From Terriglobales bacterium (GTDB lineage: Bacteria > Acidobacteriota > Terriglobia > Terriglobales > Acidobacteriaceae): a DNA stretch of 45,068 nt. Shown here piece after piece: positions 35,420 through 38,564 of this stretch (positions within the stretch are counted from its first letter, which is position 1; each line of letters starts with the position of its first letter). A program made the translations under genes and the position numbers. The stretch lies in assembly GCA_035764005.1 (NCBI GenBank), contig DASTZZ010000004.1:1-45068 (forward strand). The letters are read 5' to 3'. Under the pieces are notes generated by a model, which saw only the letters and a program-made list of their open reading frames with translations, ran no database searches and was not told where the DNA came from.

Positions 35420-35449
35420 CGGGCGCGAAGTCGCGGAGCCACGACAGAA

Positions 35450-35764
35450 GTCCCGCCGAATGGCGGGACGCATGAATGTAGCCCACCATGCAGCGAAGTG
35501 CAATGGTGGGTTGCGGTGAAAAGAGGCGGTCGAGTCCGGCTTTCAGCCGGACGATTGAGAATTGGTGTTATGCCTCGGCCTGAGATTTACAGATGTGCGA
35601 AAACACGGCTTCATGTTTCCGCCGCGGTGCTCGTGGTTTGCTGCTGCCGAGATTTTCAATCGTCCGGCCAGAGGCCGGACTCCACTGCATTCTTTCATCG
35701 CAACCCACCATTGCGCTTCGCTGCATGGTGGGCTACATTCGTGCGTCCCGCCGTTGTGCGGGAC
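35450..35764. mobile_element. 315-bp non-autonomous derivative of the IS200-like element (copy 1)
   Basis: The left arm has three hairpins: GTCCCGCC/GGCGGGAC (35450-35469), a GCCCACCAT/ATGGTGGG stem, and GTCCGGCT/AGCCGGAC (35534-35552). The right arm repeats them inverted and ends GCGGGAC at 35764. The ends match the full element at 35846-36552. The centre keeps AAACACGGC...GCGGTG (35601-35629), matching the last codons of tnpA in plus orientation, with the rest of the gene deleted. Confidence 0.75.
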
Positions 35765-35845
35765 TCTTTCCGAAATCGATCATTCTCTCTGAACCGAAAG
35801 GTTCCTTTCGTTGCATTGTGGACTCGATCGTGTTCAACCCGTGGA

Positions 35846-36552
35846 GTCCCGCGTTTTGTGCGGGACGACTGAGAGTAGCCCACCATGAGCGAAGCGGAAT
35901 GGTGGGACAACAATCGTCACGATTTGGAGTGCGGCTTCCAGCCGGACGATTGACAATTCCCACCCAACTAGTCACCGCGCCGGAAGCACGATGCCGTGTT
36001 TTTCCAGCAACAGCCTCCATTCAGTTGCGAAATCCATCTTCCGATGATGCCGCTCTTGATTGGCGATGTAGTGTTTGACCGAATCCAAGAGCGACAAGCT
36101 GACGGTAAACGCCGCATAGCCCTCCTGCCATTTGAAATCCGCGCGCAAGAGATCGCTCATCCAGCCGCTCGATCCTGCTTTGACGATCTTGATAGCCGTA
36201 GCAACCGGCATCGCTGGTTTCAGCGACAGCAACAGATGCGCGTGTTCTGCCATGCCGCCAACGGCAAGCGCACGAAAGCCATTTTCGCGGGCAATGCCGC
36301 CCATGTAGCTCCACAAGCGCGGCTTTACATCATCGGGGATTAGAGGTTTGCGAAATTTGGTTGAAAAAACGACGTGGAAATAGAGGCAGCTAAATGTGTG
36401 GGCCATTTGAGATGTGCAAAAACGAGCGGCATTGTACCAATTCTCAATCGTCCGGCTGGAAGCCGGACTCCGTCGATTCCTTGCACCTCAACCCACCATT
36501 CCGCTTCGCTGCATGGTGGGCTACCTTCATGCGTCCCGCCGTTCGGCGGGAC
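35846..36552. mobile_element. Complete IS200-like element with REP-type palindromic ends
   Basis: This 707-bp unit starts with GTCCCGC/GCGGGAC (35846-35866), then a CCCACCAT/ATGGTGGG stem and a GTCCGGCT-type stem (first arm imperfect), carries tnpA on the minus strand, and ends with the same three hairpins inverted, closing with GTCCCGCC/GGCGGGAC (36533-36552). The REP-like hairpins are of the kind recognised by Y1 transposases. It is the presumed parent of the 315- and 316-bp derivatives beside it. Confidence 0.78.
35972..36406 (-). CDS. tnpA: IS200/IS605-family Y1 transposase (REP-associated type)
   Basis: A 144-residue single-domain transposase. The HUH motif is His55-Ala-His57 in EHAHLLLSL and the catalytic tyrosine is Tyr113 in VKHYIANQERHH. 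FHVVFSTKFRKPLI at the N-terminus is typical. The length is full for TnpA (about 140-155) and the frame is intact, so it may be active. Such enzymes cut and join single-stranded DNA at subterminal hairpins, leaving no target duplication. No tnpB is present. It is flanked on both sides by REP-like palindromes, as for REP-associated transposases (RAYT). Confidence 0.9.
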   Translation of the reverse strand: MAHTFSCLYFHVVFSTKFRKPLIPDDVKPRLWSYMGGIARENGFRALAVGGMAEHAHLLLSLKPAMPVATAIKIVKAGSSGWMSDLLRADFKWQEGYAAFTVSLSLLDSVKHYIANQERHHRKMDFATEWRLLLEKHGIVLPAR

Positions 36553-36606
36553 TTCGTGGGTTTCCGATAGTTCCGGATTGACGCAATCCATATTTACTTC
36601 GTCGCT

Positions 36607-37149
36607 TCACGCTGCTTCTTTGTTGATGGGCGCGTCGCCCTCTCGTCGAACGCTTACTTCTTCGTGATTCACCGGCACGGAAATGACTTTCTTCTCGTCA
36701 ATACGACGCCGTGAGACTTTCACCTGCTCATGGAGCACTGTCTGTTTGCTGACGATCACTCGTTCTTCGCTCACCGGAATTCTGATGGCCTGCTTACCTC
36801 GGAGAACCTCGAGCGTTCTTCCGTCTTTCGATCGGCGTTCGACCACGAGTTCCTCGCGCGTGACTGGAACAGCGATCATCTGAGTTTCCGTAATCACTTC
36901 TTTTCTGATCAGGAGATCGCCTTGTTCTACTCGCTCCTTGTCCACGCGAATGCTCTCGCCGAAGAGATCGAGGACGTGCTGCTGATCGGTCTCGCTTACA
37001 ACTGTTGAACCAGGAACGGTGCGAATGTACTCGCGATCGTGCTCGGGATGTGAGAAGCGCGAGGAGATTGCCTCGAACCAGTGTCTCAGCGTCGAGAGAA
37101 TTGCCTCAAAGCTGTGCAGGATGCTTGCGCGAAGTTCGTCGCCACTCAT
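36607..37149 (-). CDS. YsnF/AvaK-domain (DUF2382) stress-type protein, short form
   Basis: A 180-residue protein whose C-terminal two thirds are a YsnF/AvaK domain (about 48-180): repeated beta-rich VRVDKERV.QGDLLIRKEV-type strands, including VPVTREELVVERR and VPVNHEEVSVRRE. The N-terminal 40 residues are a helical segment (MSGDELRASILHSFEAILST). The start at 37149 has AAGGAG five bases upstream and is chosen over the 213-codon frame. It is divergent from a longer paralogue. The molecular role is unknown; homologues are linked to stress response. Confidence 0.82.
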   Translation of the reverse strand: MSGDELRASILHSFEAILSTLRHWFEAISSRFSHPEHDREYIRTVPGSTVVSETDQQHVLDLFGESIRVDKERVEQGDLLIRKEVITETQMIAVPVTREELVVERRSKDGRTLEVLRGKQAIRIPVSEERVIVSKQTVLHEQVKVSRRRIDEKKVISVPVNHEEVSVRREGDAPINKEAA

Positions 37150-37366
37150 AGCGACTCCTTGGTATGAGGTGTGAGCTTGCGTGCGTAGCAAGTGAGATGC
37201 AACGAACACGAGAGACGCGGTCTCTCTCTCAATTGCGGTTGTGCTCACGAAAGGCAGTGAAACCGGACATAGCCTCCGCCGCGCGCCGCATCACATCGAC
37301 TATTCCTGAAAAAGCTCAAACTCTGGCCGTCAACACCCAAACTACATGCAAAGGAGTTCTTTCCGT
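37150..37366. promoter_or_regulatory. Divergent control region of the two YsnF genes
   Basis: This 217-bp gap separates the divergent paralogues. It contains GAGAGAC-GCG-GTCTCTC (37210-37226), a perfect 7-bp inverted repeat with a three-base centre that could be a hairpin or operator serving both genes. No sigma-70 consensus is obvious. Confidence 0.4.
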
Positions 37367-38227
37367 ATGGCTCGTGAAGTAAACCCATCGAACCAGCAAT
37401 CCAACATCATCCCCGGCAGTACGGCCGCCGGCTTGTTTCGCAGCGAACCTCAGGCAGAGCGTGCCATCGATGCTCTGACCGCCGCGGGATTTTCCAAGAA
37501 GGACATCGGAGTCGCCATTGCCTCCGACGGCAAAGCTGACACCCGCAGTGGAGTCACGCAGAAAATCCGTTCTCTGTTTTCGTCAGACGAGCGCCAGGAG
37601 TACGACAGCGGAAACGATCTCGACGTGCTCGAGCACATGGGATTGCGAGACGCAGACGCAAACTTCTATCGCAATTCGCTGTACCGCGGCGGCATTCTCG
37701 TTACCGTAAATGCCGGAGCTCGCTCGCGAGAGGCGGATTCCATCCTTCATAACCTCGGGGCTGAAGATATCTCGAAAGGCGCGGCCACACAGGCCAGCGA
37801 CGGCGCTGTTCGCGGCGATCAAGGCACTCAGCACATTCAACTGCTTGGCGAAATGCTGCGTGTGTATAAGGACCGCGTCCATCGTGGCTCGGTGACTCTG
37901 AAGAAAAACGTAGTCACCGAACATCAGCAGGTCGAGGTGCCCGTCACGCGAGAAGAAGTGGTCATCGAGCGCCATCCGGTAAATGCCCAGCAAGCCAGAA
38001 CGGGAAGCTTCGAGCCTGGCAAAGAAGTTACGGTCAATCTCGAAGAAGACCGCGTGCGCCTCGAGAAACAGCCTGTGGTGCGCGAGGAAGTCAACGTCGG
38101 CAAGCGTCAGATACAGCAGACTCAGCGCGTTGGCGGAGATGTGAAGCACGAAGAGCTGAAGATCGACCGTCAAGGTGATGTGAACGTAGATCGTGAGAGC
38201 GAACAGCCGCGCCGCAAAGTAGGATAG
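37367..38227 (+). CDS. GSP17M-like N-domain plus YsnF-domain stress protein
   Basis: A 286-residue protein in two parts. Residues about 20-135 resemble the general-stress-protein 17M domain (AAGLFRSEPQAERAIDALTA, then GFSKKDIGVAIASD, and GGILVTVNAG). Residues about 155-270 form a YsnF domain (VYKDRVHRGSVTLKKNVVTE, VPVTREEVVIERHP, QPVVREEVNVGKR), followed by a basic tail. ATG 37367 has AAGGAG ten bases upstream; the ATG at 37346 does not. It is divergent from a shorter YsnF protein that shares the VPVTREE core. It is probably expressed under stress; the molecular function is unknown. Confidence 0.84.
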   Translation: MAREVNPSNQQSNIIPGSTAAGLFRSEPQAERAIDALTAAGFSKKDIGVAIASDGKADTRSGVTQKIRSLFSSDERQEYDSGNDLDVLEHMGLRDADANFYRNSLYRGGILVTVNAGARSREADSILHNLGAEDISKGAATQASDGAVRGDQGTQHIQLLGEMLRVYKDRVHRGSVTLKKNVVTEHQQVEVPVTREEVVIERHPVNAQQARTGSFEPGKEVTVNLEEDRVRLEKQPVVREEVNVGKRQIQQTQRVGGDVKHEELKIDRQGDVNVDRESEQPRRKVG

Positions 38228-38248
38228 GTCGCATCAGCAGCGTCGTCA

Positions 38249-38564
38249 GTCCCGCCCAACGCGGGACGCACGAAGGTAGCCCACCACGGAGCGAAGCGGA
38301 GTGGTGGGTTGCGATGCAGGAAGCCATGGAGTCCGGCCTCTGGCCGGACGATTGAAAATTCCGAATCTCAACAAAACACGATCACCATGCCGGAAGGGCG
38401 ATGCCGTGTTTGCTACAGCTTGAAATTCTGAGGCGGTATGAATAGCACCGGAGTCTCAATCGTCCGGCTGAAAGCCGGACTCCAAATCGGGATGATTGTT
38501 ATCCCACCATTGCGCTGCGCTGCATGGTGGGCTACTCTCGATCGTCCCGCACAAAACGCGGGAC
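38249..38564. mobile_element. 316-bp non-autonomous derivative of the IS200-like element (copy 2)
   Basis: It has the same ends as the full element: GTCCCGC/GCGGGAC, the CCCACCAC/GTGGTGGG stem and GTCCGGCC/GGCCGGAC on the left, and the inverted set on the right, ending at 38564. The interior keeps the tail of tnpA at 38382-38411 on the minus strand, still readable as KHGIALPAW followed by TGA, against KHGIVLPAR in the intact gene. The rest of tnpA is deleted. Confidence 0.78.
38382..38411 (-). pseudogene. Remnant of tnpA (last nine codons and stop)
   Basis: Read on the minus strand, AAACACGGCATCGCCCTTCC and onward encodes KHGIALPAW then a stop codon, matching the C-terminus of the intact transposase at 35972 except for two residues. 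It shows that this small element arose by internal deletion of a tnpA-bearing parent. Confidence 0.7.

Follow-up and report, generated by a model that had tools for sequence, protein, structure and literature searches.

We analysed a stretch of 45,068 nucleotides from a Terriglobales bacterium (contig DASTZZ010000004.1 of GenBank assembly GCA_035764005.1, positions 1 to 45,068), hereafter called the window. It is contig C4 of a draft genome that comprises 5.10 Mb, divided into 131 contigs. The window contains a full transposable element of 707 bp (C4P, residing at 35846–36552, minus strand), in which the transposase gene tnpA lies between two inverted arms of three hairpins each, together with two non-autonomous copies. 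Copy 1 (C4a, 35450–35764, minus strand, 315 bp) is inserted in inverted orientation, and copy 2 (C4b, 38249–38564, plus strand) has a length of 316 bp. A preliminary description of this DNA had reported the three elements, an intact Y1 transposase and common three-hairpin ends. The coordinates and the gene were correct, and the same inverted arms are present in all three elements.

Each arm comprises, from the outside inwards, the hairpins H1 (GTCCCGC..GCGGGAC), H2 (GTAG followed by CCCACC..GGTGGG) and H3 (GAGTCCGGC..GCCGGAC), with point differences between arms. The stop-side arm of the full element (35846–35953, plus strand) shows this order of H1, H2 and H3 and is assigned to the R-type by phylogeny (clade support 100/100), and the start-side arm (36444–36552, minus strand) is of the L-type. 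Copy 2 has an L-type left arm and an R-type right arm; both arms of copy 1 are L-type. In every one of the three elements the two arms are mutually inverted. Folded as single-stranded DNA (ssDNA), all six window arms exceeded each of 200 dinucleotide shuffles, with z-scores from -4.1 to -6.6. The GT[AG]G foot that is characteristic of REPINs and of bacterial interspersed mosaic elements (BIMEs) is found as GTAG at H2 of all six arms, and some arms elsewhere in the host genome carry ATAG at this position. Elements of the IS200/IS605 group and miniature inverted-repeat transposable elements (MITEs) are known for a single tnpA and subterminal hairpins at both ends. The full element likewise has one tnpA and subterminal hairpins at both ends, but differs from IS200/IS605 elements by its long, nearly symmetric triple-hairpin inverted arms. 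In IS200/IS605 elements the pairing of guide tetranucleotides defines where cleavage takes place, and insertion does not duplicate the target.

The tnpA gene (35972–36406, minus strand) codes for a transposase of the HUH-Y1 type with 144 residues. The protein matches the Y1_Tnp family PF01797 with E = 1.4e-21 and 77.3 bits (cut-off 23) and the NCBIfam IS200/IS605 transposase model NF033573 with 64.6 bits (cut-off 55). Its translation contains the HUH motif (EHAH), a WQ motif and the catalytic tyrosine (YIANQ, extended YIANQERHH), as in IS200/IS605-type Y1 domains. All matches to solved structures are transposases, that of ISHp608 included. The C-terminus is a few residues shorter than in most homologues. 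Relatives with 78% and 74% identity are encoded in two congeneric genomes, again in full-length elements of the same architecture. Three pairwise comparisons, with and between these two relatives, gave pN values (non-synonymous differences) of 0.15–0.17 against pS values (synonymous differences) of 0.65–0.78, dS being saturated in one of them; judged by these ratios, tnpA looks conserved across the three comparisons. Three more Y1 copies related to TnpA were observed on contigs C115, C111 and C81 of the host genome, with the C81 copy interrupted by a stop codon. They are associated with their own arm subfamilies and with tail-less miniature copies.

The signature Y---Q--HH around the tyrosine was found at 38 of 40 homologue loci. 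It is the one given by Quentin et al. (2018, PMC6006769) for TnpAY1 subclass 1.2, whose members have about 148 amino acids and a conserved C-terminal domain and occur mostly in Cyanobacteria and Bacteroidetes. Window TnpA shares with this subclass, as described there, the Y---Q--HH signature, the WQ motif and a similar length, and thus fits subclass 1.2 by motif. The preliminary description had called the enzyme RAYT-like (RAYT, REP-associated tyrosine transposase; REP, repetitive extragenic palindromic sequence). This label could not be kept, as the tyrosine motif YIANQERHH is not of the Y-I-x-x-N-P type, which the same source lists for the class 2 subclasses 2.1, 2.7 and 2.8. Subclass 1.2 is described in that work as generally devoid of terminal IS200 structures, and its table records no REP for it. 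The elements studied here differ in this respect: the window arms are hairpins, and inverted flanks scoring above 100 shuffles were present at 38 of the 43 homologue loci with usable flanks (37 of 42 when L047 and L075, which represent one locus, are counted once), many of them with hairpins of the RF01687 type described in the following.

Five of the six window arms match the Rfam family RF01687 (Acido-Lenti-1), with E-values from 2.5e-4 to 1.7e-3. The matches are located at 35845–35906 (minus strand, 28.8 bits) and 36492–36553 (plus strand, 27.6 bits) in the full element, at 35449–35510 (minus strand, 28.1 bits) and 35704–35765 (plus strand, 28.2 bits) in copy 1, and at 38248–38308 (minus strand, 30.7 bits) in copy 2; each lies below the gathering score of 37. 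The arrangement hairpin-CUA-linker-hairpin of RF01687 corresponds to H2 and H1 of the arms read outward. In Rfam this family carries the type sRNA (small RNA), and Weinberg et al. (2010, PMC2864571) listed Acido-Lenti-1 as "probably" RNA. The motif is still being annotated (PMC10059132), and a paper from 2026, which describes its function as little known, considers a possible regulation of proteases in Tannerella (PMC13298647). Within a limited search of the literature that names Acido-Lenti-1, no link to a transposase was found. In contrast to the sRNA annotation, the motif stands here at the ends of a transposase element, in copies below the cut-off of the family.

This association extends beyond the window. 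We scanned 40 of the 45 tnpA homologue loci, omitting duplicates and truncated ones, and recorded matches up to E = 0.5. RF01687 was found within 250 bp of tnpA at 29 of the 40 loci and on both sides of the gene at 23; 59 of 64 matches face outward. At 19 loci a match exceeds the Rfam cut-off. As to specificity for this type of enzyme, among 20 scanned loci (of 30) of other Y1 transposases from tnpA-negative genomes, none of the 30 having Y---Q--HH, a single one carries a match, with 30.1 bits and below the cut-off. On the level of genomes, RF01687 was detected at E 0.001 in 36 of 61 (the host's own and relatives; 34 above the cut-off) and in none of 14 control genomes. It is present in 26 of 27 tnpA-positive and 10 of 34 tnpA-negative genomes (Fisher test, 4.6e-8), and inside the family in 21 of 21 and 8 of 16, respectively (p = 3e-4), where p-values overstate independence since genomes and loci are related. 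Four genomes from outside the phylum, chosen for carrying this tnpA, have 41, 6, 126 and 4 matches, which exceed the cut-off in two of them; at two of the four tnpA loci concerned (L078 and L079) no match is listed nearby. In the host genome, 16 of 19 pairings of RF01687 matches within 1 kb are divergent (14 places, three of the 16 pairings belonging to one cluster on C81) and none is convergent.

According to the Rfam annotation the arms would be small-RNA genes, with a transposase beside them by coincidence. The rating by Weinberg et al. and the many RF01687 copies without a tnpA nearby speak for this explanation, but it does not account for outward-facing matches on both sides of tnpA at 23 of 40 loci, for the divergent pairing in the host genome or for the co-occurrence with this type of tnpA, and conservation of the hairpins is equally compatible with ssDNA. 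We therefore regard RNA genes as an improbable explanation. On the basis of the sequence comparisons, RF01687 most likely represents the pair of REP-type hairpins at the ends of a family of Y1 transposons and of their miniature copies. It is probably not a family of RNA genes and may have no RNA function, although a transcript with a role of its own is conceivable; it would comprise the end hairpins and miniatures of widespread transposons of the subclass 1.2 type, whose interior can flip and whose miniatures can fossilise pieces of tnpA.

Several observations weigh against this assignment. The window arms reach at most 30.7 bits compared with a cut-off of 37, and one of the six has no match. 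In a scan of the whole genome, E 0.001 was attained by no more than two of these arms, neither of them belonging to the full element. No RF01687 match lies near tnpA at 11 of the 40 loci. In ten genomes RF01687 is present, in one of them with 46 copies, although no tnpA of this type was detected there. As many as 27 of the 57 matches in the host genome have no partner within 1 kb, and the pairings in genome G032 are mixed (4 divergent, 3 convergent and 4 tandem), with 29 of 51 matches unpaired. A search for tnpA around the 23 best-scoring RF01687 loci, with flanks of up to 1.5 kb, found it at none of them (0/23); this fits mostly non-autonomous copies, without being positive evidence for them. 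Covariation in the hairpins within the subfamily is weak: of 21 pairs, 3 have changes on both sides, and the covariation term is +0.17.

Other Y1 enzymes were also considered as the explanation of the RF01687 copies in tnpA-negative genomes. This candidate was rejected, given a match at just 1 of the 20 loci. Further arrangements of the motif were observed in single cases. Upstream of the tnpA of Desulfonema magnum (L080) six RF01687 matches are placed in tandem, and one match in opposite orientation follows downstream; the arms of this homologue exceed the Rfam cut-off. The chromosome of this organism (G063) also contains head-to-tail RF01687 arrays at 165647–167169 and 1992259–1996463, with a period of about 68–69 bp and tens of copies. 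In the host genome, two RF01687-type arms on contig C22 (27299–27802; L200) enclose about 415 bp with an open reading frame (ORF) of 97 amino acids in place of tnpA. By eye, the product of this ORF resembles a membrane protein, and the element may hold it as cargo.

Both non-autonomous copies contain a relic of the tnpA 3' end. In copy 2 it is located at 38382–38411 (minus strand), next to the L-type arm, and reads KHGIALPAW followed by a stop codon, exactly as given in the preliminary description. In copy 1 it spans 35600–35629 (plus strand) and reads KHGFMFPPR, with a changed stop codon. The match of about 30 bp to the last tnpA codons that had been noted for the two copies is borne out by alignment: 26 of 30 positions are identical in copy 2 (35972–36001 versus 38382–38411) and likewise 26 of 30 in copy 1 (35973–36002 versus 35600–35629, inverted). 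Against the 80 nt on the stop side of the parent interior (the interior of the full element), copy 2 scores 67.5 and copy 1 scores 54.5, and neither score was reached in 1000 shuffles. With the entire parent interior of 490 nt as target, the score of copy 2 was again reached by none of 1000 shuffles and that of copy 1 by one. The alignment of copy 2 with the parent starts close to the inner hairpin and, covering about 80 nt, reaches into tnpA.

The interiors of copy 1 (97 nt) and copy 2 (100 nt) align end to end and collinearly, with a score of 76.5 compared with 46.0 for the best of 1000 shuffles. The opposite orientation of the tail in copy 1, which had been recognized before, results from this relationship, because the whole interior of copy 1 is collinear with that of copy 2 after reverse complementation. 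A similarity by chance, or by convergence of hairpin sequence, would be easier to accept if only its short length, the dissimilar interiors of tail-less copies and the one shuffle in 1000 that equals the match of copy 1 to the whole parent interior were considered. This explanation is strongly disfavoured, since no shuffle in 1000 reaches the stop-side score of either copy or that of the two copies with each other. In addition, more than 30 bp are similar in copy 2, and the similar stretch occupies the same side, close to the inner hairpin, in each of the three elements. Chance similarity of the tail was rejected by the shuffle tests.

As the interiors align over their whole length, copies 1 and 2 probably descend from a single tnpA-deleted lineage that kept the tnpA 3' end. 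Having the ends of the autonomous element and a derived interior, they correspond to MITEs, or non-autonomous elements. Their nearly equal lengths had been attributed to a preferred deletion product. Descent from one deletion explains them better, because the interiors are collinear. A remnant of the start side in the expected orientation is weakly indicated in copy 1 (score 29.0, reached by 6 of 300 shuffles), and none could be detected in copy 2 (score 20.0, reached by 223 of 300 shuffles).

To place the copies in a wider context we surveyed the host genome for two-arm elements of this subfamily. Seven more were located, on contigs C101, C117, C3, C19, C83, C24 and C22, which results in a total of ten on eight contigs. 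All 18 genome-wide matches of the H2 pattern (at most 3 mismatches) fall inside these ten elements, and a reversed control pattern gave none. Solitary arms of the subfamily were not found with this pattern, which could miss more diverged ones. The interiors of the seven further copies are 42–45 nt long in six cases and 104 nt in one, and none matches the parent interior above all shuffles. The tail is therefore present in two of the nine tnpA-less copies of the subfamily; the seven others have only the ends in common with the autonomous element. No tnpA remnants were found either in 11 tnpA-less RF01687 pairs from the other two subfamilies of the host. The preliminary description had allowed that its deletion origin would fail if units elsewhere lacked the tail, and with seven tail-less copies it is not supported as a general route. 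For copies 1 and 2 themselves a deletion origin is likely from the alignments; it would be neither general nor a plain deletion of the exact full element in the window.

The arms provide information on how the copies relate to the full element. Eight arms form the R-type clade, with a support of 100/100 (0.97 in the first tree). Its members include the right arm of copy 2 and, from the full element, the arm on the stop side. The remaining arms, referred to as L-type, do not form a clean clade of their own. The tnpA tail is thus adjacent to an R-type arm in the full element, whereas in copy 2 it is adjacent to the left, L-type arm. A tree that joins the stop-side arm of the full element with the tail-side arm of copy 2 was rejected (p-AU 0.0006) in an approximately unbiased (AU) test with 22 of the 28 arms, six arms of genome G005 being omitted; the first tree comprised all 28. 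Judged by this phylogeny, the full element and copy 2 differ by an inversion of the interior with respect to its arms. Because the orientation of tail and arms is opposite in the two, the full element as it stands is not the direct progenitor, and a simple internal deletion of it would additionally need an inversion. Of the parentage suggested earlier, the relationship remains: copies 1 and 2 are relatives in which tnpA was deleted except for its 3' end. The idea that the neighbouring full element itself gave rise to them does not.

Two points count against this part of the argument. The arm groups tested were named after the first tree had been seen. Furthermore, copy 1 matches the start side of the parent better in reverse orientation (35590–35611 versus 36410–36430, overlapping its tail relic), with a score of 37.0 that was reached by none of 1000 shuffles. 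The two ends of the parent resemble one another (score 33.5, reached by 4 of 1000 shuffles), which explains this match only in part and leaves room for a rearrangement instead of a plain deletion.

Alternatively, local recombination or gene conversion could have transferred parts of tnpA to neighbouring elements that had no tail, so that no inherited deletion derivative would be needed. Both tail-bearing copies are indeed found at most 2.5 kb from the parent, and all seven without a tail are on other contigs. The orientation of the tail is reversed with respect to the arms, and copy 1 combines arms of the same type with the reverse-orientation match to the parent start side. The interiors of copies 1 and 2, however, match throughout, and conversion would have had to occur twice, or once together with a duplication. 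We consider this route possible and rather unlikely. The explanation that we favour, with reasonable though not full confidence, is a local cluster of one transposon family, composed of an autonomous copy and two derivatives of one tnpA-deleted element, with RF01687 representing the ends and miniatures of the family.

Based on these results and by analogy with the HUH-Y1 family we propose the following course of events. TnpA most likely binds the arms folded as ssDNA and most likely mobilises complete two-arm units in trans. One element would have lost most of tnpA, keeping the 3' end of the gene, and would have become the ancestor of both small copies. In one of the lineages the interior was most likely turned around when the two long inverted arms recombined, which is the simplest route to the observed arrangement.

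Transposition is inferred from the dispersal of the elements, because no empty site was found for the window cluster or for the C22 and C117 neighbourhoods in five congeneric genomes, which also counts against the proposed mobility. In these searches neighbouring genes were located, and no relative had both flanks on one contig; the genomes are drafts, and contig breaks may hide adjacency. Beside ispG, four of the five congeneric genomes (all but G005) contain, of five window proteins, only IspG.

The elements resemble RAYTs, or TnpAREP, and REPINs, as described by Bertels and Rainey (2011, PMC3116915), in the HUH-Y1 enzyme and in palindromes with a GTAG foot, which form inverted pairs and are scattered as units of two arms. 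They differ from that description in arms of three hairpins, in units of about 260–316 bp and in two miniature copies that retain a piece of the transposase gene. The enzyme, too, is distinguished from RAYTs by the absence of the Y-I-x-x-N-P type motif, known for subclasses 2.1, 2.7 and 2.8 (PMC6006769). Bertels and Rainey traced REPINs, as one possibility, back to the termini of an ancestral IS200-like element (PMC3116915), and the tail-bearing copies resemble a physical record of the proposed step from a tnpA-bearing element to non-autonomous palindromic units. The preliminary description went further in taking the locus to document how such units arise. This is appropriate insofar as copies 1 and 2 keep the tnpA 3' end; its generality is not supported, the parent enzyme has no RAYT motif, and the full element as it stands is not the direct progenitor. 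In Acidobacteria, Di Nocera et al. (2013, PMC3733652) described TIRYTs and TIRtrons, Y1 transposases with inverted-repeat flanks, one of which has a repeated family of terminal inverted repeats (TIRs) in Koribacter. The full element is similar in that a Y1 transposase is flanked by inverted repeats in a member of the same phylum. TIRYTs are described there as keeping the motifs that set RAYTs apart from the bulk of IS200 transposases.

Of the two outcomes, the probable role of RF01687 as an end module of Y1 transposons is more interesting than the deletion origin of the copies. If it is correct, an orphan RNA family gains a concrete identity, and a transposase subclass described as generally without ends would gain them.

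Beyond H1, similarity between elements exceeds 200 shuffles in 6 left and 6 right flank pairs, out of 45 on each side; the left pair of copy 1 and the full element is a single common spacer, set against its reverse complement. Additional similarity past the outer hairpin occurs among some tail-less elements (flanks of L090, L091, L092 and L094), and the right flanks of the C19 and C24 elements score 78 compared with 34 for the best shuffle. Because of this similarity, the mobile unit of some tail-less copies may be longer than annotated. Between the full element and copy 2, the window contains two divergent genes for proteins with a DUF2382/YsnF domain (36607–37248, minus strand, and 37346–38227, plus strand).

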